Below, piece after piece: positions 13,206-48,400 of a stretch of DNA of 63,826 nt. This stretch comes from Bacteroidota bacterium. Lineage in GTDB: Bacteria; Bacteroidota; Bacteroidia; UBA7662; CANHCV01. The position numbers were made by a program, and so were the translations under genes. The notes beneath the pieces were generated by a model, which saw nothing but the letters and a program-made list of their open reading frames with translations, was not told the DNA's origin and searched no databases. The first letter of the stretch is position 1. Each line of letters begins with the position of its first letter. The stretch spans positions 1-63,826 of the forward strand of contig CANMVY010000013.1 in NCBI GenBank assembly GCA_947501265.1, written 5' to 3'.

Positions 13206-13213
13206 TACATTTG
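13206..13213 (+). promoter_or_regulatory. -7 box (TACATTTG) 3 nt before the MNT start
   Basis: A perfect TAnnTTTG box ends 3 nt before ATG 13217. Transcription from it would start at or near the ATG, implying a leaderless mRNA. Confidence 0.6.
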
Positions 13214-13216
13214 AAA

Positions 13217-13507
13217 ATGTTTACTTTGGAGGAATTTAAATACAAGTTGCAAAAAAGCAAATCCTACTTCCAAAACAAGTATGGTGTTAGTGGGATGGCT
13301 ATTTTTGGTTCTTTCTCTAGAAATCAACAAACCGAACAAAGTGATATCGATATTTTGGTGGAATTCAGTCGGCCAATTTGGATGGAATTCATGGAATTAG
13401 CCGATGAATTGGAAGAAATTGTCCAATTAAAGGTGTATTTGGTCTCCAAAAATGGATTGAAAAATCACCACTTTAAAGCCATTCAACAGGAGCTTTCCTA
13501 TGTCTAA
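13217..13507 (+). CDS. MNT-type nucleotidyltransferase antitoxin (MntA-like)
   Basis: The 96-residue protein has the minimal nucleotidyltransferase signature GSFSR (31-35) followed by SDIDILVEF (42-50), giving the GSX10DXD active site. In HEPN/MNT (HepT/MntA) modules this enzyme neutralises the HEPN RNase by AMPylating it. It overlaps the next gene by 8 bp, as usual for the pair. I chose the ATG over a TTG two codons upstream because the TTG lies inside the promoter box. The antitoxin looks complete while its partner does not. Confidence 0.9.
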   Translation: MFTLEEFKYKLQKSKSYFQNKYGVSGMAIFGSFSRNQQTEQSDIDILVEFSRPIWMEFMELADELEEIVQLKVYLVSKNGLKNHHFKAIQQELSYV

Positions 13508-22560: not shown

Positions 22561-22568
22561 TAACTTCG
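22561..22568 (+). promoter_or_regulatory. -7-like box (TAACTTCG) 4 nt before asnB
   Basis: The box ends 4 nt before ATG 22573. If used, the mRNA would start at or within a few bases of the start codon. Confidence 0.45.
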
Positions 22569-22572
22569 CAAC

Positions 22573-24537
22573 ATGTGTGGAATACTTGGAGTAGTTGCCC
22601 TAGGCGAAAGCAGATTTAATCGAAATAATATGGTAGCCATGGCCGATGCCATGCACCATCGTGGCCCTGATGGGGACGGTTTTTTCTTTGCATCGGAAAC
22701 GGGGAATACACCTGATATCCCACAAAACCGATCCAATACTTTGGTTTGGTCCCAAACATCAAGTCGGGAAATTTCCCTTGCGCACAAGCGTCTCTCCATT
22801 GTTGATTTATCCAACGAAGCAGCCCAACCAATGGGCTTACCCGATGGCTCCATTTGGGTGGTTTTCAACGGAGAAATTTACAACCATGCCGAAATTCGAA
22901 TCGAATTAGAACAAAAAGGCCATCATTTTCGCACCTCACACTCCGATACGGAAGTGATTTTGCACGCCTACCAAGAGTGGGGAATTCAATGCATCGAACG
23001 GTTTAGAGGAATGTTCGCCATCGGACTTTGGGATCAACCCAAGGACGTTTTTTACTTGGTTCGCGATCGAATTGGCATCAAGCCACTTTACTACACCTAC
23101 CAAAACGGATGCTGTTATTTCGCCAGCGAAATCAAGGCCATTCTTCAAGATCGTTCCATTCCTAGAAAGTTGAATTTTCAGTCGGCCTACGATTATTTAA
23201 CTTTCCTCGCTGTTCCAGCCCCAAATACGTTTTTTGAAGGGATTCAAAAGCTTCCGGCCGGACACTACATCGAAATAAGAAACGGGCAACCATCTCAGCC
23301 CAAAGAGTACTGGGATGTGTTTACCCATGTCAATTATCAACCCCATGTTTCTGAAAAAGAAGTAACGGAAACCTTGGTGGAAAAACTTCGCGAATCGGTG
23401 AAATACCGCATGATGGCCGATGTGCCGGTGGGCGTATTTCTTTCTGGAGGAATTGATTCTTCTGTGAATGCTAAACTTTTTAGTGACCTTTCGAACGGAC
23501 AGCCGGTAAAAGCATTTTCCATTGGTTACGAGAACGATCAAGATCTCTCCAGCTACACCAATGAGTTTTACTATGCGCGCAAAGTAGCAAAAGAACTGGG
23601 TTGTGAGTACCACGAGCGCGCTCTGAATCAACAAGACCTGATCGATTTCCTCCCACAATTGGTTCACCATCAGGATGAACCCATTGCCGATCCGGTTTGC
23701 ATGCCCATCTATTACGTGAGTAAACTCGCCCGCGACAACGGTGTGATTGTAGCACAGGTAGGCGAGGGCAGCGATGAATTGTTTTGGGGATACCGCTTTT
23801 GGAAAGATTTGTTGAAGATCCAGGAATACGACGACTTGCCTATTCCTAACATCTTTAAGAAATTGGGTTTGAATGCCATGAAACTTGCCGGGAAAGACCA
23901 TACCTTGCCTTACGAATTGCTCCGCAGAGGTGCCAACAATCAGCCCATTTTTTGGACCGGATTAAAGGCTTTTGGGGAAGATGAAAAGGCAAAATTAATT
24001 GGAGGAGATTGGATAAAAGAACTCCAAGGGTATTCTACCTATGAGCAAGTTGCAAAAATTAGAAAGAACTTTTTAGAACGTGCTCCAGAGCCTAGCCATA
24101 TCAATTGGATGAGTTACATGGATTTGAAAATCCGCCTTCCAGAATTGTTGTTGATGAGGGTCGACAAAATGTCGATGGCGGTGAGTTTGGAGGCCCGTGT
24201 TCCCTTCCTCGATCATAAGTTTGTAGAATATTCTATGGGCATTCCAACAGCACTGAAAAGGAAAAACAACGAAAGCAAATACATTCTTAAAAAGGCGGTG
24301 GAAGGGCTTATCCCCAACGAAATCATTTACCGCCAAAAACAAGGATTTGATGCTCCTGTTTTTGATTGGTTTAAAAATGATTTAGGTGAATTGACCAAGA
24401 AAGAAATCAAGAACTTTATCCATCAAACCGGTTGGTTAAATAGTAAAGAAGTTGAGGATATATACCAAAGGGGAGAAGGTCGAAAAGCTTGGTTTTTACT
24501 GAATTTGGCCCTTTGGTGGAAAGAATATTTGGACTGA
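22573..24537 (+). CDS. asnB: Asparagine synthase (glutamine-hydrolysing)
   Basis: The 654-residue enzyme has the N-terminal glutaminase domain with nucleophile Cys2 (MCGILGVV), MHHRGPDGDG, RLSIVDLS and VFNGEIYNH, then the synthetase domain with the PP-loop SGGIDSS (291-297) and GEGSDELFWGY. Compared with AsnB of enteric bacteria, the glutaminase domain has an extra ~20-residue loop after HRGPDGDG (residues ~40-60). The length and the EARVPFLDHKFVEY and RQKQGFDAP motifs fit the AsnB branch often found near polysaccharide genes, where such enzymes may amidate sugars. Free asparagine synthesis is equally possible. Confidence 0.93.
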   Translation: MCGILGVVALGESRFNRNNMVAMADAMHHRGPDGDGFFFASETGNTPDIPQNRSNTLVWSQTSSREISLAHKRLSIVDLSNEAAQPMGLPDGSIWVVFNGEIYNHAEIRIELEQKGHHFRTSHSDTEVILHAYQEWGIQCIERFRGMFAIGLWDQPKDVFYLVRDRIGIKPLYYTYQNGCCYFASEIKAILQDRSIPRKLNFQSAYDYLTFLAVPAPNTFFEGIQKLPAGHYIEIRNGQPSQPKEYWDVFTHVNYQPHVSEKEVTETLVEKLRESVKYRMMADVPVGVFLSGGIDSSVNAKLFSDLSNGQPVKAFSIGYENDQDLSSYTNEFYYARKVAKELGCEYHERALNQQDLIDFLPQLVHHQDEPIADPVCMPIYYVSKLARDNGVIVAQVGEGSDELFWGYRFWKDLLKIQEYDDLPIPNIFKKLGLNAMKLAGKDHTLPYELLRRGANNQPIFWTGLKAFGEDEKAKLIGGDWIKELQGYSTYEQVAKIRKNFLERAPEPSHINWMSYMDLKIRLPELLLMRVDKMSMAVSLEARVPFLDHKFVEYSMGIPTALKRKNNESKYILKKAVEGLIPNEIIYRQKQGFDAPVFDWFKNDLGELTKKEIKNFIHQTGWLNSKEVEDIYQRGEGRKAWFLLNLALWWKEYLD

Positions 24538-29000: not shown

Positions 29001-29537
29001 TTATTTCGCAATTTTGCTCAAAGCATCGGTCAGTGCAGCTCCTCGCAAATTCACCCCAATAATTTTTCGATTTCCATCGATCAAATAATTGGTAGGAATG
29101 GAACTAATGCCCCAAGCTGCACCAATATCAGATCTCCAACCTTTCAAATCACTCACGTGGTTAGGCCATGCTAAACCATCGCTCGCAATGGCATTCACCC
29201 AGTTTTCCTTCTTGGTGTCCAAAGAAATATTGAAAACCGTAAATCCTTTACCGCCTTGGAAGGATTTGCTTTTGTATTGTTGAAAAGCAGCCACCACATT
29301 CGGGTTCTCGGCCCGACAAGGTCCACACCAGCTTGCCCAAAAATCAATCAGTACAATTTTTCCTTTTAACGAGGATAATTTCAAGGTTTTTCCCTCAGGG
29401 GAAATTCCAATGATTTCAGGGGCAATGTCGCCCATCTTGTACTTGGGCTCGTATTGAAATGGGGCCGAAGTGTTGCTTTTGAAGCTGATGGCTCCCAGAC
29501 CCACCAACATACTTAGAAGTAGAAATGCTTTTTTCAT
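29001..29537 (-). CDS. TlpA-like thioredoxin-fold protein, exported
   Basis: The 178-residue protein starts MKKAFLLLSMLVGLGAIS, a signal peptide or membrane anchor. The frame is open 13 codons upstream into the murA end, but the ATG at 29537 fits the signal sequence. The redox motif is WCGPC (70-74) in IVLIDFWASWCGPC, with the cis-Pro in SIPTNYLID, so it should be an active thiol-disulfide reductase in the periplasm. The segment GMxAPEI-like (MGDIAPEIIGIS) is typical of TlpA/ResA proteins. Confidence 0.92.
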   Translation of the reverse strand: MKKAFLLLSMLVGLGAISFKSNTSAPFQYEPKYKMGDIAPEIIGISPEGKTLKLSSLKGKIVLIDFWASWCGPCRAENPNVVAAFQQYKSKSFQGGKGFTVFNISLDTKKENWVNAIASDGLAWPNHVSDLKGWRSDIGAAWGISSIPTNYLIDGNRKIIGVNLRGAALTDALSKIAK

Positions 29538-29542
29538 TGTTG

Positions 29543-29550
29543 CAAGTTTA
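29543..29550 (-). promoter_or_regulatory. -7-like box (TAAACTTG) 5 nt before the tlpA-like start
   Basis: It has one mismatch to TAnnTTTG, overlaps the last codons of murA and lies 5 nt before the ATG, the same gap as at DUF4290 and ruvC. Confidence 0.4.
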
Positions 29551-30861
29551 CGAAACGCGAACAATATTCGCGCCAATTTTATTTAAACGTTGATCGATAT
29601 TTTGATAACCTCGATCGATTTGATCGATGGCGTAAATGGTGCTGCTTCCTTCTGCCGATAGAGCTGCAATGAGCAAGGAAACTCCAGCACGAATATCAGG
29701 ACTGGTCATTTTGATGCCGCGCAATGCGTATGCTCGGTCAATACCAATCACCGAAGCGCGGTGAGGATCACACAAAATAATTTGTGCTCCCATGTCAATC
29801 AATTTGTCGACGAAGAACAACCGACTTTCAAACATTTTTTGGTGAATCAAAACACTTCCTTTTGCTTGTGTAGCTACCACCAAAATGATACTTAACAAAT
29901 CTGGAGTGAACCCAGGCCAGGGAGCATCGGATATGGTTAAAATCGAACCATCAATGAAAGTGTCGATTTCGTAATGATCTTGAGCTGGAACGAAAATATC
30001 ATCGCCCCGAAATTCCATTTTTATTCCCAAGCGTTTGAAAACATTGGGAATAACGCCCAACTCAGGGATTTTGCAATTTTTGATGGTGATCTCGCTCCGA
30101 GTCATGGCCGCTAAACCGATGAAGCTTCCAATTTCGATCATGTCGGGAAGCATCTCATGGGAACATCCTCCCAATTTTTCTACTCCCTCAATGGTAATTA
30201 AATTAGAACCAATCCCAGAGATTTTTCCGCCCATTCGGTTGATCATCTTGCACAATTGCTGCAAATACGGTTCGCAGGCAGCATTGTAAATGATGGTTTT
30301 TCCTTCGGCCAAACATGCCGCCATCACCACGTTCGCCGTTCCCGTTACCGAAGCTTCGTCCAACAACATGTACGTTCCCTTCAATCCTTCTTTCGGCGCC
30401 TCCACGCTGTAAAAACTATCGCCAGCGTCGTAATTGAAAGCCGCTCCCAACATTTTGAAACCCAGGAAGTGGGTGTCTAAACGTCGGCGACCAATTTTGT
30501 CTCCTCCCGGTTTGGGCATGTACCCAACGCCATACCGCGCTAATAAAGGGCCCAAAATCATGATGGAACCCCTCAAGTGAGCGGCCTTGTTTTTAAAATC
30601 TTCTCCTTTTAAATAATCAAGGTTCACATCATCGGCAATAAAAGAGCAACGTGAGCGTGTTTCGCGCCTAACTTTCACTCCCATGTCTGCCAATAAATCA
30701 ATCAACTTGTTGACGTCTTGAATGTCGGGAATGTTATCGATGATTACCTCTTCCGGTGTGAGAAGTACCGCAGAGATGATTTGTAATGCTTCGTTTTTTG
30801 CACCTTGAGGCTGAATTTCGCCTTTGAGTTGGTGACCACCTTCAACAATAAAATGTGCCAT
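29548..30861 (-). CDS. murA: UDP-N-acetylglucosamine 1-carboxyvinyltransferase with Asp in the catalytic loop
   Basis: The 437-residue enzyme adds enolpyruvate to UDP-GlcNAc, the first committed step of peptidoglycan synthesis. It has the substrate-binding QGAKNEALQ (19-27), RGSIMILGPLLARYG and the loop PKPGGDKIGRRRLDTH. The position of the usual catalytic-loop Cys (Cys115 in E. coli, GGCTIG) is Asp121 here (codon at 30499-30501). An Asp at this site is known from mycobacterial and chlamydial MurA and gives fosfomycin insensitivity. It starts inside the DUF4290 stop (TAATG). Length is slightly longer than the usual ~420. Confidence 0.95.
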   Translation of the reverse strand: MAHFIVEGGHQLKGEIQPQGAKNEALQIISAVLLTPEEVIIDNIPDIQDVNKLIDLLADMGVKVRRETRSRCSFIADDVNLDYLKGEDFKNKAAHLRGSIMILGPLLARYGVGYMPKPGGDKIGRRRLDTHFLGFKMLGAAFNYDAGDSFYSVEAPKEGLKGTYMLLDEASVTGTANVVMAACLAEGKTIIYNAACEPYLQQLCKMINRMGGKISGIGSNLITIEGVEKLGGCSHEMLPDMIEIGSFIGLAAMTRSEITIKNCKIPELGVIPNVFKRLGIKMEFRGDDIFVPAQDHYEIDTFIDGSILTISDAPWPGFTPDLLSIILVVATQAKGSVLIHQKMFESRLFFVDKLIDMGAQIILCDPHRASVIGIDRAYALRGIKMTSPDIRAGVSLLIAALSAEGSSTIYAIDQIDRGYQNIDQRLNKIGANIVRVS

Positions 30862-31502
30862 TAGTAACGATTATTTTTTTTGCCGAATTTCTTAAAATTT
30901 TTGTTTTTGCCACCGTGGTGCCCCTTCCGATTTTGTTGCATCAACGTGGCTTGGTGGGGCACCCGATGCGACGGAAGAACTACACCCTCTTTCAAGGCCA
31001 ATTCTCCATTGGAAAGCTCCCTCAAATCTTCGTTGATTTCATCGTCGGAAACGGCCGTTTGGTGGTAAATGGTGTAGGCCATTTTCATGAAATTACCGAT
31101 GGACTCTGAAAGGGTATTTTTCAAACCATCGTCTTCGGTTTTCATGGCACTTTCGATCATTTTTTCTACCACCTTGCCATAATGCCGCAACTTGATTCTT
31201 TGCTGAGGATAGGGCATGCGGGGTGGTTTTTTGGTAGAATACTCTTCCAAATTGATTTCATAAGGACATTCTACATCGAACTGTTCGCCTGCGATGGCAA
31301 ACAAATGGGTCCATAGTTTTTGTTTATAATCGGAAGAATCTTTGGCGGCTGGAGCCAAATGTGCCATCAAATCAATGATGGTTTGGCATGCTTTATTTCG
31401 TTCTTCTTTGGTTGGAAGATCTTTCGCAATTAGAATGAGATTTTGAACCCCGCGACCGTATTCGGAAATCGTTAAGGGCGGGCGTGAAGTATTGTATTGC
31501 AT
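30861..31502 (-). CDS. DUF4290 family protein
   Basis: The 213-residue protein matches the Bacteroidota family usually encoded directly upstream of murA. Recognisable parts are the start MQYNTSRPPLTISEYGRGVQ, then LMAHLAPAAKDSSDYKQKLWTHL and IKLRHYGKVVEKMIE. The C-terminal ~30 residues are basic and Asn/Gly-rich (HHGGKNKNFKKFGKKNNRY), suggesting contact with nucleic acid or an acidic partner. It is coupled to murA by TAATG. Molecular function is not known. Confidence 0.92.
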   Translation of the reverse strand: MQYNTSRPPLTISEYGRGVQNLILIAKDLPTKEERNKACQTIIDLMAHLAPAAKDSSDYKQKLWTHLFAIAGEQFDVECPYEINLEEYSTKKPPRMPYPQQRIKLRHYGKVVEKMIESAMKTEDDGLKNTLSESIGNFMKMAYTIYHQTAVSDDEINEDLRELSNGELALKEGVVLPSHRVPHQATLMQQNRKGHHGGKNKNFKKFGKKNNRY

Positions 31503-31507
31503 TGGTA

Positions 31508-31515
31508 CAAAAGTA
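31508..31515 (-). promoter_or_regulatory. -7 box (TACTTTTG) 5 nt before the DUF4290 start
   Basis: A perfect TAnnTTTG match on the minus strand, then TACCA and ATG. Transcription would begin at about the A of the start codon, implying a leaderless DUF4290-murA mRNA. Confidence 0.6.
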
Positions 31516-31523
31516 AAAACAAA

Positions 31524-32102
31524 TCACTTGATTCGGTTGGGGTTCGCTGCTAAAAACGAAGACCAATCTTTGGCTTTGGTTTTGGAGCCTGTTCCATCTC
31601 CTTGCAAAAAGTGGCAAACCGCGGCAGCAAGTCCGTCCGTTGCATCCAATTTTCCAGAAAATTTAAACTCCAGCAGGTGTTCCATCATTGCAGCGACTTG
31701 TTCCTTGGAAGCATTTCCGTTTCCGGTGACGCTTTGCTTAATTTTCTTTGGCAAATACTCGAAAATAGGAATATCACGGTACAAGGCAGCCGCCATAGCA
31801 ACGCCTTGGGCTCTACCCAATTTTAACATCGACTGAACGTTTTTTCCGAAAAATGGAGCTTCAATGGCCAATTCATCGGGTTGATATTTTTCAATCAATT
31901 CTAAAAGCGTTTCGAAAATTTTCTTCAATTTGAGGGGATGGTTTTCAATTTTGTTAAGATTTAAAACATTAAGATCTACCAAACTCATTTTTTTTCCCTT
32001 CGTTACGATCACACCGTATCCCATGATGGTTGTGCCGGGATCAATTCCCAAAATTACCCGCTCCGGAGTGGTGGATTGCTGAACTATCTTTGTACTAACC
32101 AC
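31524..32102 (-). CDS. ruvC: Crossover junction endodeoxyribonuclease RuvC
   Basis: The enzyme cuts Holliday junctions. Acidic active-site residues are visible: Asp in LGIDPGTTIMGYGV near the start, Glu in LAIEAPFFGKN and Asp in DATDGLAAAVCHF near the C-terminus. The start is not obvious, because no in-frame ATG precedes the first motif. I prefer the GTG at 32102 (192 residues, close to the family length), which follows a perfect -7 box by 5 nt; a TTG at 32141 would add 13 residues. A basic tail (KAKDWSSFLAANPNRIK) ends the protein. Confidence 0.92.
   Translation of the reverse strand: MVSTKIVQQSTTPERVILGIDPGTTIMGYGVIVTKGKKMSLVDLNVLNLNKIENHPLKLKKIFETLLELIEKYQPDELAIEAPFFGKNVQSMLKLGRAQGVAMAAALYRDIPIFEYLPKKIKQSVTGNGNASKEQVAAMMEHLLEFKFSGKLDATDGLAAAVCHFLQGDGTGSKTKAKDWSSFLAANPNRIK
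32085..32092 (+). promoter_or_regulatory. -7 box (TATCTTTG) for the flippase-like gene
   Basis: A perfect TAnnTTTG match inside the 5' end of ruvC, pointing to the plus-strand genes. It lies about 95 nt before the first usual start codon (TTG 32188). Confidence 0.5.
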
Positions 32103-32107
32103 AACAT

Positions 32108-32115
32108 CAAAAGTA
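32108..32115 (-). promoter_or_regulatory. -7 box (TACTTTTG) 5 nt before the ruvC GTG
   Basis: A perfect TAnnTTTG match on the minus strand. It lies only 15 bp from the plus-strand box at 32085-32092, so the two promoters would compete for polymerase. Confidence 0.5.
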
Positions 32116-34117: not shown

Positions 34118-34326
34118 GGGTTGGTTGTTCTCGGGTTTGTCATTTTTCCTGTTTTCTTTGTTAAGAAAAGTAAATCCGCCTAAAAATGAAACGCGGAAAT
34201 CTCCAATTGTTCCGAAATTACAGATTGATTTTTCCTTACCTTTTCGGGTTGTGTTAATGAATTGTTAATGCACTCCAACCAATTCCGAAAATGCTGGTCA
34301 AATCAACCAATCAAAAACCAACCCAC

Positions 34327-37300
34327 ATGAAAAACTTTTCCTTTTTTCCTAAGCTTTTGCTTTTTGGATTTTTTCTGGCCTTTGGCTTGAATTCCCATGC
34401 GCAAATAGTGAATTATTCCATTGGAACCCTGGTTGTAAATGGAGGTAATCCTGGCAATTTGAATGCTGATTTGGATAATTTGCCTCATACAACAGTCAAT
34501 GGGTTTACCGAGCTTCTTGGTGGCAGTGCCTTTTTGCCGTTGTATTCTGCGTCTCAAACGCTTCCATTCCCATTCTCGTTCAACGGGGTGGCACAAACCA
34601 AATTTGTGGTTTCGCACACCGGAATTTTTTCGTTTGATACGACTAGAGCTGGACTTGTTGCTTCTCCTGCGAATGGAACGCTAACGAGTGCCAACATTCC
34701 GAACAACTCCATTGCAGGATTTTGGTGCAATTGGACTTCGGCGGCACCATCGGGCGCTGATGACAAAGTTTATTCCAAAGTGTACGGTACAGCGCCAAAC
34801 CGTCAGTTGTGGATCGATTGGTTCAGCATGGAACTTGGATCTGCCTCTGATGCACACTTTTCCATCGTTTTGGAAGAAGGAACCAATAAAATTTATGTTG
34901 TTGACAAGAATTTGTGGAGCGGTACTAACGTAGCTGCAACGGTTGGGGTGAAAGTATCTTCAACCAAAACGTTTGAGGTAGCAGGTTCGCCATCCTTAAC
35001 TTTCGGAACAGGAACATCAGCTATTTCCGATAACGATTACTACACCTTTACGCCAACCACCATTTCATCGTATTTAAAAACGATTGGGGCTGGAACATCG
35101 AACAATACGCGTACGACTCAGCCAACTCCTTATGCCGCCAATAACTGGGGAAATCGCCTTCAAATGTTGATTCGTAAAAGCGAGTTATCTGGTTTAGATA
35201 CCACTCCTATTTTAAACTCACTTGCATTCAATGTTGCAACCTTAGCAGGAAATCCGCTCGCAGGGTTTTCTATCAAATTGAAAAACGTATCCGATACTGC
35301 TTTGACGGGATACATTTCCGGAGCTACCCAAGTTTATTCTGCCGTTACTTATATTGATGTTGCAGGTTGGAATAACCATATTTTCGATTCTCCTTTCCAG
35401 TGGGATACCACCAAAAACCTTCTTGTTGAGGTTTGTTTCAGCAACTCAAACGCTGTTAATAACGGGAATGCCATCGTTAATAGTACCAACGTTGGATTCA
35501 ATGCGACCATTTTCAACGCAGCGAATACGACAGGGCTTTGCAACAATAGGAATGTGGTTGGCACAAGCCAGCTTCGTCCGAATATGCAAATCAATGGTTT
35601 GTTTCCTTTTACCGATTTGTTGGCACCCAATGTCCTGGTTACGAGCAGCACGACCAACGGTTGTAACGCCGTTCCAAGAAACGTAACAGCTACCATTACC
35701 GATAACGATTCGGTTGTTTCAGCGACCATCAAATATTCATTCGACAACGGAGCAACCTACACCAATATTGGCATGACCAAAGGTGCCTCCAATGTTTGGA
35801 GCGGGATCATTCCTGCCGCAGCTGCGGGTCAAGGAGTCATCTTCTTCATTCAAGCCGTTGATCGCAACAACAACACCAACACTCCCGACACCCTTCGCTA
35901 TAAAGATCAATATCTGTATGTTGATTTGGGTGCCGACCAAGCCATTACCGCCGGTTCAAGCGTAACCATTGGTCCCAACGGAGGAATTGCTCCCGGTGCG
36001 GAGTTGAAAATTACAGAAGTGGTGATGAACGGAGGCACCGGACGTGGGGCTCAGTTAACACCTCCAGCGGCGCATATTCCATGGGCAAACACCGTTGATT
36101 TGGTAGAAATCATGAATACCGGCCGTGTAACTGTTGATCTTCAGGGGTACCAACTTCGCTTTTTAGCTGGATTCAACCCATTTAACTACACGTTCCCTTC
36201 CATGTCTCTTGCTCCAGGCGAAATTGCTATTGTAGCTACCGGTACGGGTGCTGATAGCATTCCTTTGAAATTTGTTCGCACCAACAACAACTTCAATTTG
36301 AGTAATGGTGGACAGTGGGGATTGGCTTTGTTTACCAGAAACAATAAAATCATGGATGCCATGGCCAGTGGCAATTACCAATTTCCGATTACCAGTGGTG
36401 TTACTGCCAACGATTGGGCTGGAAATTTAACCACACCTTTCGGTGGTGGTGGATCAGGCTGGTGCGCATGGATTCGTAATTATTCCGATAAAAATGATAA
36501 TACCGATTGGGCCGTTTCAGATACCAACGGAGTTATTAATCGAACTTCCCTTGGAGTTCGCAATCCGAAATTGGTTTTGGCTACCGATACCAATCGTTAC
36601 GAATGGCGTGTAGTTGGGAATTCAACCATCATTGACACCAATTCGGTTACCACGGTTTCTCCAACGACCAATACTTTTTACGCCCTTACGGTTCGCGATG
36701 CTGTTTGTTCCTACACCGATACCATTTTGGTAAGCATCATTACGTATTGCGCTGGTGCTTCTCGCGATTCTTCGGCTTTCGTTGCCGGAGTTGCAACGGG
36801 CTCATTGAGAAATACCTCCAATTATTCTACTAGCGGATATCAGCTTTACACTACACCCGTGACCAATGTGGTTCGCGGAAGTTCAAATAACGCCATTTGG
36901 ATCAATCCAGGATTTTCTTCCAACAAAAGAAATAGTTATGTGAAGTCGTACATGGATTTCAACAAGGATGGAGATTTTGCTGATGCTGGGGAAGAAATTT
37001 TCTCTGCTGGTCCTGATACTTTAGCGGTGAGTGGTTCTTACTCAATACCATCCAATGCGGTAACAGGAATTACTCGCTTCCGGGTTGTTTTGCAAGCGGA
37101 TAGCTTTGCAAACCTTTGCGATACGGTTCAAACCGGTGAAATTGAAGATTATTTGGTGAATGTGGTGAATGCCCAATTCGACCAAGATGCACCGGTTGTT
37201 GTTTCGGTAGATGCCATTGCATCTGCTTGCGTATCATCTGCCCGAAACGTAGGTGCCATCATTACCGATAATTTTGGAGTTGATAGTGCCTTTTTGAGCT

Positions 37301-40300
37301 ATTCTACCAACAATGGAACGTCGTTTACCACGGTTTCAATGACCAACAATTTGGCGCTTGGTAAGTGGGAAGCGAGCATTCCATCGGTGGCGTTGGGAAC
37401 AACGGTGATTTATTATGTTTCTGCTGTTGACTTCAATCGCCAACGTTCTGCCAATTCAGGTTCTAAAAAGTACAAAGATGGAGTTTCTATGGTGTACGGT
37501 GGAAACGATACCGTTGTTGCACCTAACGGAAATGTTCGACGCATTGCCAAAACAGATTTGACCAATGTTGCGATCACCGAGGTGTTATTTAACCGAGGTC
37601 AAGCCGGAACACAAACTACTTTCCCAGTCTATTTGCCTCAAAACGGCACAGCCGATCAATTTGAGGTAACCAATTACGGTGGATTTAACAACGATTTAAG
37701 TGGATTTACCGCTCAATTGTACTACACGGCATTTGGTGGTGGTCCTGGAGGCGGTACCCTAACGACCCTTTCCAAGGTTTTACCAGCAGGCACCGTATTA
37801 GGTCCGAATCAACAAATGATTTTTGTTTTAGGAACCGGAGCCGATAATGCTTCTAACCGTGTATTCTACCTACCTTCTGCTACTGGTGGATTTGTGGATA
37901 TGAATTCCTTTGGACCAGCCGGTTTCGCTTTGTTGGATACAGCTGGAAATCCGGTAGATGCAATTGGCTTCAACAACATTGCCTTCCCTAATACCCGCAT
38001 AACTTCTGCCGATTGGAGAGGCAATATTGCCATTCCAGCTGCCGGTGGTGGCGGTGGCGGCGGTAACTCTTACGCTGGGGTTCAACGTACAGGAACAACA
38101 GATCGCAACGATTCATCGGATTGGGTGATTTCGAATGCAGCCAATTTATCAACCATTGCCGGTGGAACACCTAATTTGACCTTGGCTGGTGCGACCATGA
38201 AATGGACGGTTGCAGGAAATGCAACTCCTATTTCCAACAACGATACGCTTCAAGTTACCGTTGGTTCAACCACTTCGTACGTTGTAGCATTGAATGCCAA
38301 CGGTTGCACGGTTACCGATACGGTTTTGGTTGAAGTAGATTCTACCATCACCAATTTAACTGCGATCCAAGTAGGAGCCATCAATCCCAATTGCAACCTT
38401 ACATCCAATGAGCCGGTAGGTTTCAAGTTTAAGAACAACGGAGCGGATTCGATTAATTTCTCTTTAAGAAATACTGTTGTAACCCTTCAGGTATTCAACG
38501 GAACCACGACTTCAACCTTTACCGACACGCTTCGTTCTGGGGTGATTCGTTTAGGAGATACCCTCACTCATGTTTTCAATGGAGTAAACTTAAGCGTTGG
38601 AAATACCTATCAATTCACGGCTTGGGTGAAAATCAATAATGATCGTGTAGTAGCAGATGATACAACTCGAAGCAGTTTAAAATCTGAAGCGTTATTTGTA
38701 AATGCTGGATTAGATCGCACCATCGTTTTAGGACAATCTGCCTCCTTAAACGCAACTTCCAACTTCAAGAAAATTGTCATTTCAGAGGTGTTACAAACCT
38801 TGGTTTCTCCAGGTGTTCAAACCACGTTCCCAGCCGCGTTCGGAAACGTTACGGGGCAATTGGTGGACATGTTTGAGGTGGCCAACGTTTCGGGAATTTC
38901 TCAAAGCATTGCCGGATATTCCTTGAGTTTTTACGGATTGACCCAGACTGCAGATTACACGTACACCTTCCCAACAGGAGCTGTTGTTAATGGTAATGGG
39001 GTAGTTTCTTTCCTGACCAACAACGGTGCCAATAATTTAGCTGCGGGTGTTTTCTTCCGAAATCCAACTGCAGGTGGTACCAACACAGCGAATAATAATG
39101 ATGCTTTTGGTATTGTTCTTCGTGATAATTCAGGAGCTATTGTTGATGTAATGGCTACGAATGGCTACAACTTTACCGTTGCTTCGGGTGTTACTGCTGC
39201 CGATTGGGGTGGAGGTAACACGGGTAATGCAGGATTTGCAGGAACTCAACGCATCGGATTTGATTCGAATAAAGTGACCGATTGGGCGGTTTCCAATCCT
39301 GGAAGTCCTTCTACCATGGGAACCTTGCAAGCGAGCCTAACCAGTCCCATCGGAACCTTTGCATGGTCGGTGTCTGGCGGTGGACTTCTTTCAAGTACCA
39401 ACCCATTCTCGGTTTCACCAACAGCACCAACTACTTACGTTGCTACTTTGAATAATGGAATTTGTACCGTTACCGATACCGTAAACATCGCCATTGATTC
39501 CAACGCGGTTGATTTTGCTGCACTTCAGGTTGGAAACGTAAAAGCAGCTTGTCAGTATTCCAATTCTGATACAGTTTATTTCCGTGTGAAGAACCAAAGT
39601 GCCGTTGCCATCAACTTTGCTACCCGCAATTTGAATGCACGATTGGTAGTGAATGGAACACCATACACTCGTTCAATTACGACCGGAACTTCTAATCCTA
39701 ACGATACCATTCTTTTGACCTTTACGGGTGTTAATTTGGGATCAACGGTAGGAAATTCTACCCTTTATAATTTAACAGCTAGCATTTCTATCAATGGAGA
39801 TGCCGTTGTTTCAAACGATACCGCTCGCGGAAGCATTGTTTCCGAGAAATTGGGAGTGAATGCAGGTCCCGACATTGTTGTTGCGCCAGGAGCAAATTTC
39901 AATTTGCAGTCTAAAGCGTTCAATCGTATTCGTTTCACCGAATTCATTTGGATTTCTACAGCTGGAACAAACGGTCTTCAAACAACTGCCCCTGCTGGTG
40001 TAACCAATTGGGGAAATGCCCAGTACGATTATTTTGAAATTGGCAACCCTGGAGCAAACAATGTGGACATGTCGAACTGGACCTTCCAATCCTTCGTGAC
40101 CAACGGACGTCCTGGTCAAGTGAATTATTCATACACCATCCCGAATGGAACGATTATCAATTCAGGAAGTGCCATCATCCTTTCAACCGATACAGGTGCG
40201 AACGGAAATGGGGTTTTGTTTATGGGTAGAAATACCGTGGACAATTACAACTCTGGTGGTCAATTCGGTTTGGTCTTGAAAGATGCTGCTGGTAATGTGG

Positions 40301-42414
40301 TGGACGCGTTTGCCACAAACAGTTATGCCTTCAATCCGTTGACCTCGGGTGTTCGTCCAAACCAATGGATCGGAAATATTCCAAATTCAACGGGTTCTGC
40401 AGGTGTGAAACGAAGCATTGAAGACAACGATAGCTCGAACAACTGGGTGGTGTGTAATTCAGCAGCGAATGCAACCAATTTAGGAACACTTCAACCCATG
40501 CGCAAAACCTATTTGAGCTGGTTGAATAACGCTGGAGTTGTTATCAATAACACCGATACCACAACTCAATCTGCTACGGCTTCTACCTATTTCATTGCAG
40601 CGTATAGCAATGGTACATGTACGGCTTATGACACCATCAACGTGAATGTAAACAACAACGTGGTGGATGCACAAGCCTTGTTCCCCGAATTGGTGAATCC
40701 GCCTTGTACCTTAGGTTCCAATGAAACCGTTCGTGCCGTATTGAGAAACGTTGGAGCAACGGTCTTGAATTTTGCAACAACTCCTGTAACCGTTACTTTA
40801 ACAGCAGGTCCTGCTATTTACACAGGAGTATTAAACTCTGGAACGGCGAATCCTTTGGATACGTTCCGAGTAACCATTACAGGTGTGAATTTGGCTGCAG
40901 TGGGAGCACCTCCGGCTACGGCGAAGGTATTATTTACGTTCACCATGCCGGGCGATGCGAATGCTGCAAACAATCGATCTGATTCTATTTTCGTTGGTAA
41001 CCAGAACAATACTGTAACAGCATCTGCTTTGCGTTATACCATCAATTTTGGAGATTCTACCAAGGTGTATGCCAATGCTCCAGGAGCCGTGAAAATTACC
41101 GAAGTGGTTGCATTTGCAACAGGATTAGGAAGTCAAGATTCTACCACCGTTCCAACCGGTTATCCATGGGCATTTACTCGCGATATGTTTGAAATTACAA
41201 ACTTAGGAATGGGCAACGTTAACCTTCAGGGCGACTCTTTGGTGATTTACAGAGTTGGTGGTGGACCCGGAGGTTTGGCACCAATTATTTACGCTCTACC
41301 GAATGTTTTGTTGGAGCCAGGAAGCAGCATTACTGTGGTTTCCGATACAGGGACCAACAACCCAGGAATTGGTTTGTATTTCATCCAAACAGGTGGTGCA
41401 AATCCATTAACTTCCGGTGCTCAAGCGGGGGTTGTGGTTCGTGGCGGTAGCATCAAAGATGCGGTTGCGCTGAACGGGTATAATTTCCCAGCAGCCACCG
41501 GTGTATCTGCTTCAGATTGGTCTGGGGCGATTCCAAGTTCTAACGGCCGCGCTGGGGTGTTTCGCCTTCCAGGGAACGACAACAACCGAGCGACCGATTG
41601 GGTTGTTACCGATACAGTTATTCCAAATCGCAGAACCTCCATTGGCGCATTGAACCCAGGTGTGGTTTCTCCAATTCCTGTATTCCTTTGGTTCAACAAT
41701 GGAAACTACGTTGGCATGGGAGATTCTTTGCAAGTAAAACCAGGAGATACATCTGTTTATACGGTTTCATTGAATTACGGAACCTGTTCTGCCATCGATA
41801 CCGTTCAAGTGAATGTTATTCCTTCAAGAAATTTCAATGATATGCAAGCCCTCTCGTTTGCAACATCGAACACCATTCCAGTTAGAGGACCGATTTCGAT
41901 CCAGGCTAATTTTAAAAACTTAGGAAAACCTGCGAAAAACTTTATTGTTGCTCTTTCTGCGAATGGAACTTTTGTTGCAGTTGACACGGTGAACTTGGCA
42001 GTAAGCGTTTGGCCCGATAGTGTTTACACCCATACTTTCCGAGCACCATGGATTCCTGGCATACAAGTGAATAATACGCTTTGTGCTATTGTTTCCATTT
42101 CGGCTGACCAGAATATGGTGAACGATACCACTTGTGAATCTTTCTTAAGTGGGGTTGGTACCCAAAATTTGGTGAAACAAGTTGTTCAAATGTACCCCAA
42201 TCCATCTAGAAATGTGGTTACATTGAATGCTGGGGAAGATTTGATTCAAAGTATTCGAATTTTAGATTTACAAGGCCGATTGGTTCTACCTGTTCAATTG
42301 AACAGGCCAGAAAATCAAATTTCTGTTGATATTCAAACGTTACATGTTGGATCCTATTTGGTTGAAATTCAGACAAAACAAGGAACTACTGTTGGACGTT
42401 TAGTTAAGGAATAA
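34327..42414 (+). CDS. Giant secreted protein with five lamin-tail-like modules, a GEVED domain and type A T9SS tail
   Basis: The 2695-residue product starts at MKNFSFFPKLLLFGFFLAFG, a signal peptide, although the frame is open 12 codons upstream. Residues ~20-250 form an N-terminal beta domain. Lamin-tail-like (LTD) modules start near 559, 1075, 1479, 1860 and 2253, each with KITEVV- or VISEVL-type starts, LQGYQL- or IAGYSL-like cores, a GTGAD/NNGAN/DTGAN loop and W-A-V-S/T-type ends. Between them are CARDB-like and Ig-like spacers (TYVATLNNGICTVTDTV). A GEVED domain lies at about 807-948 (MDFNKDGDFADAGEEIF, TGEIEDYLV). The tail (MYPNPSRNVVTL...LVEIQTKQG...RLVKE) is a type A sorting domain. 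LTDs in bacteria accompany surface nucleases and adhesins; no nuclease motif is visible, so a structural or adhesive role is likely. Confidence 0.9.
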   Translation: MKNFSFFPKLLLFGFFLAFGLNSHAQIVNYSIGTLVVNGGNPGNLNADLDNLPHTTVNGFTELLGGSAFLPLYSASQTLPFPFSFNGVAQTKFVVSHTGIFSFDTTRAGLVASPANGTLTSANIPNNSIAGFWCNWTSAAPSGADDKVYSKVYGTAPNRQLWIDWFSMELGSASDAHFSIVLEEGTNKIYVVDKNLWSGTNVAATVGVKVSSTKTFEVAGSPSLTFGTGTSAISDNDYYTFTPTTISSYLKTIGAGTSNNTRTTQPTPYAANNWGNRLQMLIRKSELSGLDTTPILNSLAFNVATLAGNPLAGFSIKLKNVSDTALTGYISGATQVYSAVTYIDVAGWNNHIFDSPFQWDTTKNLLVEVCFSNSNAVNNGNAIVNSTNVGFNATIFNAANTTGLCNNRNVVGTSQLRPNMQINGLFPFTDLLAPNVLVTSSTTNGCNAVPRNVTATITDNDSVVSATIKYSFDNGATYTNIGMTKGASNVWSGIIPAAAAGQGVIFFIQAVDRNNNTNTPDTLRYKDQYLYVDLGADQAITAGSSVTIGPNGGIAPGAELKITEVVMNGGTGRGAQLTPPAAHIPWANTVDLVEIMNTGRVTVDLQGYQLRFLAGFNPFNYTFPSMSLAPGEIAIVATGTGADSIPLKFVRTNNNFNLSNGGQWGLALFTRNNKIMDAMASGNYQFPITSGVTANDWAGNLTTPFGGGGSGWCAWIRNYSDKNDNTDWAVSDTNGVINRTSLGVRNPKLVLATDTNRYEWRVVGNSTIIDTNSVTTVSPTTNTFYALTVRDAVCSYTDTILVSIITYCAGASRDSSAFVAGVATGSLRNTSNYSTSGYQLYTTPVTNVVRGSSNNAIWINPGFSSNKRNSYVKSYMDFNKDGDFADAGEEIFSAGPDTLAVSGSYSIPSNAVTGITRFRVVLQADSFANLCDTVQTGEIEDYLVNVVNAQFDQDAPVVVSVDAIASACVSSARNVGAIITDNFGVDSAFLSYSTNNGTSFTTVSMTNNLALGKWEASIPSVALGTTVIYYVSAVDFNRQRSANSGSKKYKDGVSMVYGGNDTVVAPNGNVRRIAKTDLTNVAITEVLFNRGQAGTQTTFPVYLPQNGTADQFEVTNYGGFNNDLSGFTAQLYYTAFGGGPGGGTLTTLSKVLPAGTVLGPNQQMIFVLGTGADNASNRVFYLPSATGGFVDMNSFGPAGFALLDTAGNPVDAIGFNNIAFPNTRITSADWRGNIAIPAAGGGGGGGNSYAGVQRTGTTDRNDSSDWVISNAANLSTIAGGTPNLTLAGATMKWTVAGNATPISNNDTLQVTVGSTTSYVVALNANGCTVTDTVLVEVDSTITNLTAIQVGAINPNCNLTSNEPVGFKFKNNGADSINFSLRNTVVTLQVFNGTTTSTFTDTLRSGVIRLGDTLTHVFNGVNLSVGNTYQFTAWVKINNDRVVADDTTRSSLKSEALFVNAGLDRTIVLGQSASLNATSNFKKIVISEVLQTLVSPGVQTTFPAAFGNVTGQLVDMFEVANVSGISQSIAGYSLSFYGLTQTADYTYTFPTGAVVNGNGVVSFLTNNGANNLAAGVFFRNPTAGGTNTANNNDAFGIVLRDNSGAIVDVMATNGYNFTVASGVTAADWGGGNTGNAGFAGTQRIGFDSNKVTDWAVSNPGSPSTMGTLQASLTSPIGTFAWSVSGGGLLSSTNPFSVSPTAPTTYVATLNNGICTVTDTVNIAIDSNAVDFAALQVGNVKAACQYSNSDTVYFRVKNQSAVAINFATRNLNARLVVNGTPYTRSITTGTSNPNDTILLTFTGVNLGSTVGNSTLYNLTASISINGDAVVSNDTARGSIVSEKLGVNAGPDIVVAPGANFNLQSKAFNRIRFTEFIWISTAGTNGLQTTAPAGVTNWGNAQYDYFEIGNPGANNVDMSNWTFQSFVTNGRPGQVNYSYTIPNGTIINSGSAIILSTDTGANGNGVLFMGRNTVDNYNSGGQFGLVLKDAAGNVVDAFATNSYAFNPLTSGVRPNQWIGNIPNSTGSAGVKRSIEDNDSSNNWVVCNSAANATNLGTLQPMRKTYLSWLNNAGVVINNTDTTTQSATASTYFIAAYSNGTCTAYDTINVNVNNNVVDAQALFPELVNPPCTLGSNETVRAVLRNVGATVLNFATTPVTVTLTAGPAIYTGVLNSGTANPLDTFRVTITGVNLAAVGAPPATAKVLFTFTMPGDANAANNRSDSIFVGNQNNTVTASALRYTINFGDSTKVYANAPGAVKITEVVAFATGLGSQDSTTVPTGYPWAFTRDMFEITNLGMGNVNLQGDSLVIYRVGGGPGGLAPIIYALPNVLLEPGSSITVVSDTGTNNPGIGLYFIQTGGANPLTSGAQAGVVVRGGSIKDAVALNGYNFPAATGVSASDWSGAIPSSNGRAGVFRLPGNDNNRATDWVVTDTVIPNRRTSIGALNPGVVSPIPVFLWFNNGNYVGMGDSLQVKPGDTSVYTVSLNYGTCSAIDTVQVNVIPSRNFNDMQALSFATSNTIPVRGPISIQANFKNLGKPAKNFIVALSANGTFVAVDTVNLAVSVWPDSVYTHTFRAPWIPGIQVNNTLCAIVSISADQNMVNDTTCESFLSGVGTQNLVKQVVQMYPNPSRNVVTLNAGEDLIQSIRILDLQGRLVLPVQLNRPENQISVDIQTLHVGSYLVEIQTKQGTTVGRLVKE
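36001..41680 (+). repeat. Five LTD-containing coding repeats of ~1.16-1.56 kb
   Basis: Module starts are near 36001, 37549, 38761, 39904 and 41083. The last three intervals are about 1.14-1.2 kb; the first is longer because it holds the GEVED domain. Sequence identity between copies is low, so the duplications are old. Confidence 0.75.
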
Positions 42415-42487: not shown

Positions 42488-45400
42488 ATGAGAAGATTTT
42501 TTTGGTTATTGATTGGATTTTTTTTACTGGGCCCCTTTGCCCAAGCCACTCACTTTGCCGGCGGAGATTGCTATTACGATTACGTAAGTGCAACTCCTGG
42601 TGATAATACCCGTGCGCGATATGCTGTTCACTATATTTTTTACAGAGATATTCAAGGGGCTGCGTTCAATGCTACTTCCATTACGGTCGGCATGTACGAT
42701 GCTTCTCCAACGTCTGTTTCTGGAGTGATTGAGGTCCTCCGTACTGTTCCACAGTATTCACGGCAATTCCTAACTCAATATTCTCAAGGATGTTTTTACA
42801 AAAGCCCCATTGGCTACGAACGCGTTGAATTTATTGATACCGTTGATCTATTAAGAACCAAAGGCTATTTCTTTTCTACTTCAAATTTCGCTCGAAACGG
42901 CGGACAGATCCAAAACATTAGTCAAACAGGTCCTTTTTCAATTGTTTTAAGCACCTACGTTCCGCCACGAAATTCATTTGTTAACAACAGTCCGCGTTTT
43001 CGAGCTGTTCCTGTTCCTTACGCTTGCGTTGGGAAAAAGTATGTGTTTAACCACGACGGATTTGATCCCGATGGAGATTCCCTGGTCTTCAACATCGTAT
43101 GGCCGTATGGCCAAGGCGGTACTTATCGTTCAGGCGGTAACGTTGGAGAAGGAGGGATTCCCGATTTCAATGTTTCAACTTTGCCCCTTGCACAACGATC
43201 TAGCTTTCCTACCCGTCCAACTTTGCCAGGCAACAATACCGGTATTTCGGGGTATTACACTCCAGTTACCTATCAAGGGGCCTACAGTTTTCCATCGAAC
43301 CAAGTCCCTGCAATCTCACCCGATACCTTAAAGATGACCGGAAGCACCGGCGAAATTAGTTTTACTCCAACCAACCAAGGCGGATTCGTTGTGGCCATTG
43401 AGTGTTTGGAATATCGGGTTGACCGTATTAATAATGTTACCACCTACTTGGGATCAACCCGAAGAGATTTGCAGTTCTTTTTTGATGCAAGTTGCACCGG
43501 GAATAGTGCACCCCAGGTTTTTGTGACCGATAGTTTTACTCTTCAAGTTGGAGACACCCTCGACTTTAATGCCGTAGGCATTGATTTTGATCCTACCCGT
43601 GATACGGTGATGATGAGTATTGCTGGTGATATTGTTGGAACTGGATCTGGAAAGGCTACCGTTACCATTACACCGGGCCCGAGTCAGGCCATCATGAACG
43701 TGCGTTGGATTCCATCGTGCTCCTTCGCCCGAACCGCTCCATACTTCTTAATCATTACAGCGAAGGATAGTATTTGTGCCGTTACACAAAAAACGGTTTA
43801 TATTCGAGTCCTTCCGAAAGACATTATTCTTCCTCCCAATTTACGTTGTGCCTCTGTTTTAGGAGACGATTCCATATCCCTTTCTTGGGTACGAACAACC
43901 TCAGCTTCAGCTGATTTTGGTAAGTATTACATTTATCGAAACTTGAATGGTGGAGCCTTTGCACTCATTGACTCCATCCCTGCAAGAACAACACAAGTTT
44001 ACTTGGATCGAAATGTTTCTCTGGCTGATCAAAGTAATGTGTACGGGTATTTCATGGTATCCCTAAATAATTGTGGCGAAGCTGGATTGACGAGCGATAC
44101 CATTTTTTCAATTTTACCCCTGGTTCAAAAAATCAGTACTGCCCAATTTCGTGTTACCTGGAATGAGTTGACCAACGCTATTGGAAAAAGGTACGGAAAA
44201 ATTTACCGGTTGTACGAGGACCGAGGTACCGGTTATGCTTTAGTACAAACGGGAACCCAACGATCCTTTATTAGTTCCGGTTGTGATTTCCGAGTTAGGT
44301 ACAAAGTAGAAACATCGGATAGCCAAACAACCTGTATTTCAAGTGGATTTTCTCTTTGGAATTCATTAAAGGATACCATTCGCCCAGGTACTCCTTCCAT
44401 TACCTTGTTTTCCGTAGATGGAACCGGAAAATCCACGATTACCATTCAAAAATCTGATAGCCTTGATGCTATTCGTTACTTAATTTATCGAAGTTCCAAC
44501 GGTGGATCGTATGTTCTCATCGATTCGGTTAACCAAACCGGTTCCGGCACTTTTGTTTATCGAGATGCATCTTCCAATCCGTCCACCATCAAGTATTGTT
44601 ATAAAGTTGCAGCAAGAGATTCATGCGGTAATCTTAGTTTTCAATCTACCGAAAATTGTGGAATTAAGTTAACGGGTATTCCAGGGCACTTTTCTTCGGT
44701 ATTAACCTGGACTCCATTTTCGAGTCCGTTGTTAAGCGGTTATGTTTTACAACGTTGGAATGGCTCTACGTGGGTAACCATTGGATCATTTCCTACTACG
44801 AAATTGGGGTATGTAGATACTCCAAGAGCCTGCGGAATAGCGAACACCTATCGGGTTTTTGGCACGTATGGACCCTCAGATAGTTCATTTAGTAATTCGG
44901 TGGTGGTTACCCCCATCGATACCATCATACCGATTTCCCCAAGGTTGCTTTCGGTTTCGGCCATTTCCAATGACTCTGTTCAAGTTACTTTATTTCGATC
45001 TCCAGATCCTCGAGTTAAACTGAATCGCATTCAAGTAAGCATCAATGGAGGAGCTTTTTCCAATCTGGCTTCATTTATCAATTCCACAACCGATACGTTA
45101 AGGTATTGGCACTTAGGTTTGAACAATACTTTGAATCAGTATTGTTACCGCGTTTTGGCTTTCGATTCATGTTCAAATACCATTTCTGTTCCACTAGACA
45201 CCCATTGTGTTACCCAACTTTCGGTAACGGGAGGAAGTCGATTGAACGCTTTAACATGGCCAAAGTATCCTTTTTCTTTAACAGATAGTGTTAAGGTAGA
45301 ACGATTGGTTGGTACGACTTGGATCAAATGGGCCCTTCTCCCTGGAAGTGCAACGGCGTACAATGATACTGGAATCGTTTGTAATTCAACCATTACCTAT

Positions 45401-48400
45401 CGCGTCACCTCTTTTTCCTCCAATCTATCAGCCATTTCTACCATTCGCTCGGGAACGGTTTTTGATACAACTCGACCAGCATTGGCTTGGATTAATGGGA
45501 TAACGTACCTCAACGACACGTTAACGCTGTTTTTCCCAACCCAATTTGATGTGGCAGGGGTAAATATTTATTTCAAAACGAATGGTGGTCCACCATATCT
45601 ATTGAGAAAATATTACAAGGTTAATTCTTCTAATCTCCAAAGAGTAGCATTACCCACTTTAACCTCCTCGGTAGATACCTTTGAATTTTCCATCACCACT
45701 TTCGATAGTTGTTCAGAATTGGAATCCGTTCAAAGTCCATGGTATCTCCCCATTCACTTAAGGGGAACCGCCGGATTGTATACCTCAAATTTGTTATTCA
45801 ACGCCCCTGTTATTCCTTCCAACAACTCTCCCTCGTATTCTCAAGTTACCTTAGAGAGATTTTTGAGTCCGTTATTGGGATATCAACCCGTAAGAACGTT
45901 AACGAATATTGTTCCAGGCTTCAATTCAATCATTGATACGGTTCCAGAATACATCATCAATCCTACCAACATCAACGATACCATTGATATTTTCTGCGGC
46001 CAAGGAATTCTATACCGAATTTCTTATCAGGCCAATGTTCGCACGCCGGCTGTGGTCTATTCCAATGAAATTCAAACCTTCCCCATCGACACGTTTTATC
46101 CGAATAACGTAAACATCATTTATTTGTCGACCAAAGGAACAGATTCTATTGAAGTTCAATGGAAGAAGCACATTCGTCCATCGGTGACCAAATATGTGGT
46201 TTACATATCCCAAAATGGTGGTCCGTTTGTTTCTGTTGACACCGTTTTGAACAATTTGCCTTTTGTTTATTTCAAAAGGTATGGAAGCTACAATATGACC
46301 AATACTCAAATTTCTGTTCGTATTGCAGCTTTTGACTCATGTTCAGGAAAATGGTCAAGAAATTTTGAAACACATACCCACTCCTTCCTTACTGGAACTT
46401 CTCTAGCAGGTAGAAAAACCGCGGTTTTAAATTGGCGGTCTTATCGTGGCTATGTACCCGGTTTTCGCTATAAAATTATTCGAATGGATCCTTCTAATGG
46501 GGTTTCATCCGTTATTGCCAATGTTCTCGATACGTTTTATACCGATACCACCATGGCTTGTAATAACCCGATCAATTACACCATTTTTATTGATGAGATC
46601 AATGGAGATGGAGGATCGGGGTACACCAACACCATTACCCTTATTGGAACAGATACCATTGCTCCATCTAAACCAAACATCATTAGCGCTTCGGTGCGCG
46701 GGTTAAATCGAATTGAAATTTATCCCAATACCAATTTTCAAGACATCGACAGTTTCGAAGTTTTTGGAAAAACAAAATTTGGAACATGGTCATCGCTTGG
46801 ATTTCATAAAGCGCAGCCCGTTATTACAGTGAATCTTTCGCCAACGATGGATTCTATTCTTTGCATCCGATTGGTAGGATTGGATTCTTGTGCAAATAAC
46901 CGCTCGGTACCATCCGATGAACATTGTTTGATTCAACTAACAGGAACACCCCAGAATCTTTCAAACCAATTGAATTGGTCTGCTTATTCGGGTATTTCCA
47001 CCAATAACAAAATACATATCGTTCAAGAGTTGATTTCCGGTGTTTGGCAAAACATAGATACCACTCTTTCCAATCAACTTCAATACACCCATTTGAATTT
47101 GCCTTGCGGTATTGAAAAAACGTATCGCATCTTTTATTTCGACACCGTTTCTTCGGTTTTTTCATATTCTGATACGATTTCACTTACCCCGTTTGATGTT
47201 ACTCGCCCGAACAAACCATCCATCGACATTGCTACCGTAGTAGATCAAAATACCATTTTCATTCGATGGAATGCAAGCACCTCTCCCGATGTAAATCGAT
47301 ATGAGTTGTGGAAATCGCCATTGGGAACCAATAATTGGGTTTTGGACCAATTGGCTTTCTACCGAGATTCGGCTTTGGTAGCTGGAAATACCGTTGATAC
47401 CATTTGGTCTTTCCGTTTGGTGGCCATCGATAGTTGCGGAAATAACCGAAGTGATACTTCCTTGGTGCAAACAGTTGCAAATATTCAAGGCATTGCCCAG
47501 AATTTGCAAGTTACCCTGTTCCTTAGTAATTACCGCTCAACAAGTAGCTATTCGATGACCTTGGAAGAGTTTAGTCCGGTGAGTGGTTGGCTTGGCTCAG
47601 GTTCTAAAACGGGCTTAACCGATACCCTTGTAATTTCGAACTTACCTTGTAATCAAGCATTCACGTACCGATTGCAGATTCAAGATTCGTTGGGAAATAC
47701 GGTTAGTTATTCCGATTCGATTCAAGTTGTTCCATTCGACACAATAACTCCAGCCCAACCTGATGTAGAATTTTTGAGCACCAACGGTGTTGATTCCATC
47801 TCTTTATCATGGAGCCCGAGTCGATCCTTGAACATCAAAAACTATCACATTTACGGTGCGCCTTACGGTTCTCCTTTGGCATTTTTGGATTCCGTTCCTG
47901 ATACGGTTTCGAATTATTCTTTTTTAGCGAATAATGTTCAATCGCCTTGGGTGATTTACGTCCTTGCGAAAAATTTCTGCAACGAAAAATTATCCACTTT
48001 TGATGATTCGGTTATTACCTATCATCCCTTCCTTTCCCAATCGGGTTGTGATAAAGCAATTGAAATTGATTGGTCCTTGGGAAAATTTGAATTTCCTTCC
48101 GGAAATGGAAATGTTCAACTTTTCCGCGGCACATCACCAAACACCCTTGCATTGTTCCAAACCCTTCCATCGGGAACGCTCAACTATGCAGATACGACGG
48201 TTATCTTTGGTAACAGGTATTTTTATCAAATACAAATTATCGCTTCCAATGGCCGAGAATCTTTCATTTCATTTGTAGCAAATGACAGTGTTTTGCCTTT
48301 GTCCATGCCTGTTATCTTAGGTGCATCGGTTACAAAAACAGATCCAGTTAATGGCAGCATTGAAATCAAATGGAATTCGGTTCAAAATATTCCGCAGTCG

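Follow-up and report, generated by a model that had tools for sequence, protein, structure and literature searches.

A promoter box ending four nucleotides before the start codon marks probable leaderless genes in a Bacteroidia genome

Results

Five genes with a box beside the start codon

The window (the whole 63,826-nt stretch of DNA that was analysed) contains a DUF4290 gene, ruvC, a TlpA/thioredoxin-like gene, asnB and mntA, the identities of all five being supported by Pfam (Table 1). An earlier note on this DNA had described a -7 box 3-5 nt before each of their start codons, and all five boxes were located at the distances it gave. The boxes of DUF4290, ruvC and mntA match the strict consensus, TAHHTTTG, and those of the TlpA-like gene and asnB depart from it by one mismatch. 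Downstream of mntA lies a HepT-like gene, with which it likely forms a HEPN/MNT toxin-antitoxin pair (13217-13760). Two neighbouring, very long open frames of 2,707 and 3,685 codons are also present on the + strand of the window (34291-42414 and 42488-53545).

Table 1. Boxes and genes in the window, and divergent gene pairs with a strict box before both starts (the latter on contigs C1, C2 and C7 of the same genome).
Feature	Position	Strand	Details
DUF4290 -7 box, TACTTTTG	31508..31515	-	5 nt upstream of ATG 31502, in 21-nt gap after ruvC
DUF4290 gene (PF14123)	30861..31502	-	start ATG 31502; Pfam E=6e-57
ruvC -7 box, TACTTTTG	32108..32115	-	spacer ATGTT, 5 nt before GTG 32102
ruvC (PF02075)	31524..32102	-	start GTG 32102; Pfam E=3.3e-44, residues 17-164
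TlpA-like -7 box (one mismatch), TAAACTTG	29543..29550	-	spacer CAACA, 5 nt before ATG 29537
TlpA/thioredoxin-like gene	29001..29537	-	signal-peptide-like N-terminus; Pfam Thioredoxin_8 E=1.4e-16
asnB -7 box (one mismatch), TAACTTCG	22561..22568	+	spacer CAAC, 4 nt before ATG 22573
asnB	22573..24537	+	Pfam Asn_synthase E=4.4e-88 and GATase_7; protein begins MCGI
mntA -7 box, TACATTTG	13206..13213	+	spacer AAA, 3 nt before ATG 13217
mntA, MNT-type nucleotidyltransferase	13217..13507	+	Pfam Polbeta E=8.5e-13
HepT-like gene	13500-13760		3' of mntA, slight overlap with mntA; Pfam HepT-like E=1.1e-12
Divergent pair, predicted leaderless	C1 133843/134645
Divergent pair, predicted leaderless	C2 46125/47352
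Divergent pair, predicted leaderless	C2 144271/146434
Divergent pair, predicted leaderless	C7 93741/95945

The DUF4290 box is identical in two genomes of the same genus and was not found upstream of the orthologues outside the genus, which makes the arrangement at this gene a recent one. Among the matches listed, the closest homologues of the DUF4290 protein belong to Pedobacter and relatives, at no more than 53% identity. Likewise, two other species of the genus retain the ruvC box 5 nt from the start, although in one of them the adjoining bases differ.

Agreement by chance has to be considered in an AT-rich genome, and overall TANNTTTG is not enriched in the window (46 observed, 55.6 expected). 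It is however the position of the box, and not its frequency, that is non-random, since three strict boxes lie 3-5 nt before a start where 0.04 are expected from their density (P about 1e-5). With up to one mismatch allowed there are five such boxes against 0.73 expected (P about 1e-3, post hoc).

Spacing of box and start codon across the genome

The whole genome was read (2,328,218 bases in 26 contigs, the window being contig 13), and genes were called using a simple coding-potential model blind to upstream sequence, which gave 1,772 genes and 90% coding. With d defined as the number of nucleotides that separate TAHHTTTG from the start codon, its distribution is bimodal, with a sharp spike at d=4, a trough at d=9-13 and a broad hump at d=15-19. 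Strict boxes number 11, 82, 21 and 10 at d=3, 4, 5 and 6, fall to 3-4 per position at d=9-11 and to none at d=12, and rise to 21, 16, 28, 21 and 15 at d=15-19. The modal spacing is 4 nt, and three of the five genes first put forward lie at 5 nt.

At d=4, 84 genes carry a strict box (at a slightly lower score cut-off) in comparison to 0.82 in dinucleotide-shuffled upstream regions, and at d=3-5 the corresponding values are 117 and 3.0. The genome-wide count against shuffled sequence that the earlier note had proposed thus gives an enrichment near starts by a factor of about 100, and its core claim, a -7 box beside the start codon and probably leaderless mRNAs, held up in this test of spacing. 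The control motifs GTTTNNAT and ATNNTTTG occur only 0-2 times per position near d=4. An excess of this size over shuffles, together with the near absence of the control motifs, leaves chance agreement with a negligible probability.

A graded box model places the excess at about 200 genes for d=3-6 and about 350 for d=7-60. Of the 427 strict boxes no more than 60 nt from a start, 128 (30%) lie at d=3-6, corresponding to 7.4% of 1,726 genes. As promoters with longer leaders are uncounted, 30% if anything overstates the proportion of these boxes in the full set of promoters. Leaderless genes are predicted to make up about 7% (strict) to 12% (relaxed) of all genes. The 117 genes at d=3-5 start with ATG (109) or GTG (8), and none with TTG, in line with the strong bias towards AUG that characterizes leaderless mRNAs. 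Four divergent gene pairs carry a strict box 3-5 nt ahead of each of the two starts, which lie 46-110 bp apart (Table 1).

Start codon assignment

The spacing could be misleading if the start codons were mis-assigned and translation truly began downstream, so that the messages would have leaders after all. Automatic start calls are error-prone, and in the window ruvC starts with GTG and encodes about 15 residues ahead of its conserved core. However, the spike is also found without gene calls, TAHHTTTG-N4-ATG occurring 108 times in the genome against about 23 at other spacings, with GTG likewise raised at N4 (24 against about 11). Moreover, in a sample of ten genes with d=4 or d=5 (leuS, fmt, metG, alaS, der, rnhA, mnmA, mnmE, accC and uppS), compared with the best full-length family models, the predicted first residue differed from the family N-terminus by no more than about 3 residues in every case, and the start codons of the sampled genes are right. 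Position 1 of the Pfam profile pairs with residue 1 of the DUF4290 protein, whose N-terminal MxYNT is kept in most homologues. The MCGI opening of AsnB places Cys2, the catalytic residue of its amidotransferase class, next to the Met, so that this start is fixed and there is no room for another. The GTG start of ruvC is plausible, and less certain than those of the other genes. Systematic mis-assignment is very unlikely to account for the spike.

The box as a promoter element

Among the 84 occurrences of TANNTTTG at d=4, 82 are TAHHTTTG, with a G at the two H positions in only 2 of them. In Flavobacterium johnsoniae promoters, G is excluded at both variable positions of the box, and AT-rich stretches are found at about -18 and -28 (PMC6847099). 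The base profile over the 40 nt upstream of the box correlates well between the leaderless class (boxes at the short spacing) and the leadered class (r=0.74), and not at all between the leaderless class and 343 boxes situated inside genes (r=-0.05). In both classes AT-rich peaks lie about 7, 17 and 28 nt before the box, approximately one helical turn apart, and no such peaks were found upstream of the in-gene boxes. Furthermore, a model trained on leadered promoters discriminates leaderless from in-gene boxes with an AUC of 0.82. By the upstream score, the boxes in the window fall at the 99th (asnB), 90th (DUF4290), 83rd (TlpA-like) and 26th (mntA, the weakest of the five) percentiles of the leaderless class, the DUF4290 box also being at the 99th percentile of in-gene boxes. 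Box-aligned profiles display no clear -33 TTTG, which is likewise not evident in F. johnsoniae (PMC6847099).

First or divergent genes make up 48% of the leaderless class and 47% of the leadered class, in comparison to 21% of genes without a box. These observations bear on a reading of TAHHTTTG as a translation signal, i.e., a non-Shine-Dalgarno ribosome-binding element rather than a promoter, which its closeness to the start codon would allow; gene finders do assign non-canonical AT-rich ribosome-binding sites to the phylum, and StartLink+ handles the group as using such sites (PMC9581028). A ribosome-binding element is nevertheless highly improbable, given the helical AT-rich pattern shared with leadered promoters and missing at in-gene boxes, the exclusion of G at positions 3-4 as in mapped promoters, the enrichment at first and divergent genes, and an identical box that peaks at 15-19 nt as well.

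A second alternative accepts the boxes as real promoters and supposes that the main transcript of many of the genes starts farther upstream, by operon read-through or from a second promoter, and carries a normal leader, which would make the leaderless mRNA a minor form. In 23% of the leaderless class the upstream gap is 30 nt or less, and DUF4290 follows ruvC by 21 nt; boxes inside operons such as this one may be secondary promoters. Against a predominant upstream transcript stand the proportion of divergent or first genes, which equals that of the leadered class, and the sharp 4-nt optimum, which requires selection for exactly that spacing. We regard a main transcript from farther upstream as unlikely, though the least so of the alternatives to promoters that give leaderless mRNAs.

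One promoter type at two spacings

The earlier note had further suggested that two promoter classes may coexist, with longer leaders kept notably by genes with signal peptides. This link was not borne out: signal-peptide-like N-termini are equally frequent in the leaderless (24%) and leadered (26%) classes (Fisher p=0.78), and the TlpA-like gene that it listed among its own short-spacing examples has one. Nor are two promoter classes needed, since the box, the exclusion of G at positions 3-4 and the upstream AT-rich pattern are common to both groups. There is a single promoter type at two spacings, and the groups differ only in the distance to the start codon.

The 4-nt spacer of the leaderless class has a mild consensus ending G-C before the ATG (G 46%, C 55%). 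A C just before the start is common elsewhere too (38-46% in other genes), whereas G at -2 is found in 38-46% of the leaderless class against 13% of the leadered class and 20% of other genes, and is perhaps part of the start-site sequence. Leadered genes are A-rich over the 5-13 nt that precede the start. In leaderless genes the box itself fills positions -12 to -5, hence they lack both a Shine-Dalgarno site and the A-rich stretch. The A content of the first codons in the leaderless class is no different from that of other genes. Folding over the first 40 nt of the coding sequence is slightly weaker than average in the leaderless class (-3.1 against -4.1 kcal/mol) and close to that in the leadered class (-3.4). 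A pattern search of all contigs of the assembly did not find the 16S rRNA 3' end with its anti-Shine-Dalgarno sequence.

Distribution among Bacteroidia

Across 149 Bacteroidia genomes, TAHHTTTG-N4-ATG occurs 11,221 times and the N10 form 4,998 times, with N4 exceeding N10 in 144 genomes, which again argues against chance. The present genome ranks 10th of the 149 with 35.6 excess sites per Mb, the median of the class being 10.2, and two genomes of the same genus have 98 and 106 N4 sites against 14 and 16 for reversed-pattern controls. Above it stand two families with the highest N4 counts in the class. Family f40 (three genomes: G057, G094 and G123) has 53-81 excess sites per Mb. Family f44 (four genomes: G061, G097, G126 and G154) has 56-74 with a very low background (N4 137-190, N10 9-20), one of its genomes, a single contig of 2.27 Mb, having 190 N4 sites against 20. 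No DUF4290 match was found in the three f44 genomes tested.

Among named relatives (Pedobacter and others, 1.45 Mb), where the distance was taken from the box to ATGs opening long frames, there are 47 boxes at d=4 against 1-6 per position at d=8-13; these loci were all fetched by the same gene, and part of the 47 may be related copies of one neighbourhood. A 5-nt spacing was set aside as a measure across relatives, as it understates the effect, the spike being at 4. Elsewhere in the phylum, outside Bacteroidia, the N4 excess is small or absent in most genomes, the exceptions being families f78, f86 and f90, where N4 exceeds the reversed pattern (e.g., 35 against 3 in genome G325).

Discussion

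Bacteroidota lack Shine-Dalgarno sites, though the matching sequence is usually retained in their ribosomes, and the choice of the start codon in this phylum is still under study. Leaderless genes had been thought rare in this bacterial group; here they appear to be roughly one in ten. The precise spacing of the box, the promoter-like sequence upstream of it and its excess in both the genome and the class are very probably explained by sigma-ABfr housekeeping promoters in which 4 nt (3-6 nt) separate the box from the start codon, giving leaderless mRNAs. Weighing against this explanation are the boxes that lie inside operons, the restriction of the DUF4290 box to the genus, the mismatches in two of the five boxes first described and the weak upstream context of mntA.

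In the proposed mechanism, with TAHHTTTG as the -7 element of a sigma-ABfr promoter at this short distance from the start codon, the polymerase would begin at the A of the AUG, leaving a predicted mRNA leader of 0-2 nt. Translation would then start on the 5'-terminal AUG without an upstream ribosome-binding context. At other genes the same promoter would give leaders of about 11-15 nt or more, with an A-rich stretch before the start. The position of the transcription start is assigned by analogy with F. johnsoniae, in which mapped transcripts begin 4 or 5 nt after the box (PMC6847099); the spike at d=4 would on this basis imply mRNAs beginning with 5'-AUG, 4 nt being one of these spacings. From the same analogy we infer the lack of a leader and, with it, the mode of translation.

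A wider proposal, to which we give even chances, is that Bacteroidia throughout use leaderless initiation as a second, regular mode of expression, which serves at least 10% of genes in this lineage (those of core translation and replication included) and a larger share in at least two other families, and that it was overlooked because searches seek Pribnow boxes and the model species sampled use it little.

The exact rule TAHHTTTG, 4 nt, ATG predicts leaderless genes in any Bacteroidia genome, singles out the lineages rich in them and can improve the annotation of start codons. Moreover, it defines natural sets of leaderless and leadered genes under one promoter type, in which the choice of start by the ribosome may be tested.

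The promoters resemble the sigma-ABfr promoters of F. johnsoniae (TANNTTTG/TAHHTTTG) in the box, the exclusion of G and the AT-rich stretches one helical turn apart (PMC6847099). In that species predicted leaders exceed 10 nt in 87% of cases and reach at most 10 nt in 13% (PMC6847099). Here, unlike F. johnsoniae, the strict start-proximal boxes at 3-6 nt form a separate sharp mode, and their 30% share is not like for like with the measured 3.7-13%, since the prediction considers only genes that have a strict box close to the start. Messages that begin at or near the start codon have likewise been measured in two other members of the phylum, with 5.5% leaderless mRNAs in F. psychrophilum (PMC9723704) and about 3.7% with a 5' UTR under 10 nt in Bacteroides thetaiotaomicron (PMC7366714). 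In contrast to these minorities, the predicted use in the present genome is greater by several-fold and extends to many core housekeeping genes. Leaderless genes are therefore a known kind in Bacteroidota (3.7-13% in the species studied), and their use here is apparently heavier.

Base biases had led Nakagawa and others to suspect that the phylum has leaderless messages (PMC5397173). Of the 37 Bacteroidetes/Chlorobi genomes surveyed by Zheng and others, 1 was found to have leaderless genes, and the authors pointed out that non-Pribnow promoters would escape their survey, naming this phylum (PMC3160421); the main genome survey was thus blind to the leaderless genes of the group. Our literature search, which was short on subscription papers and preprints, found no paper on the bimodal spacing or on lineages of heavy use. 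The closest parallel outside the phylum is in Actinobacteria and Deinococcus-Thermus, where leaderless genes are also marked by a promoter box at one fixed distance; there the box is a Pribnow-like -10 element about 10 nt before the start (PMC3160421), whereas here it is TAHHTTTG.
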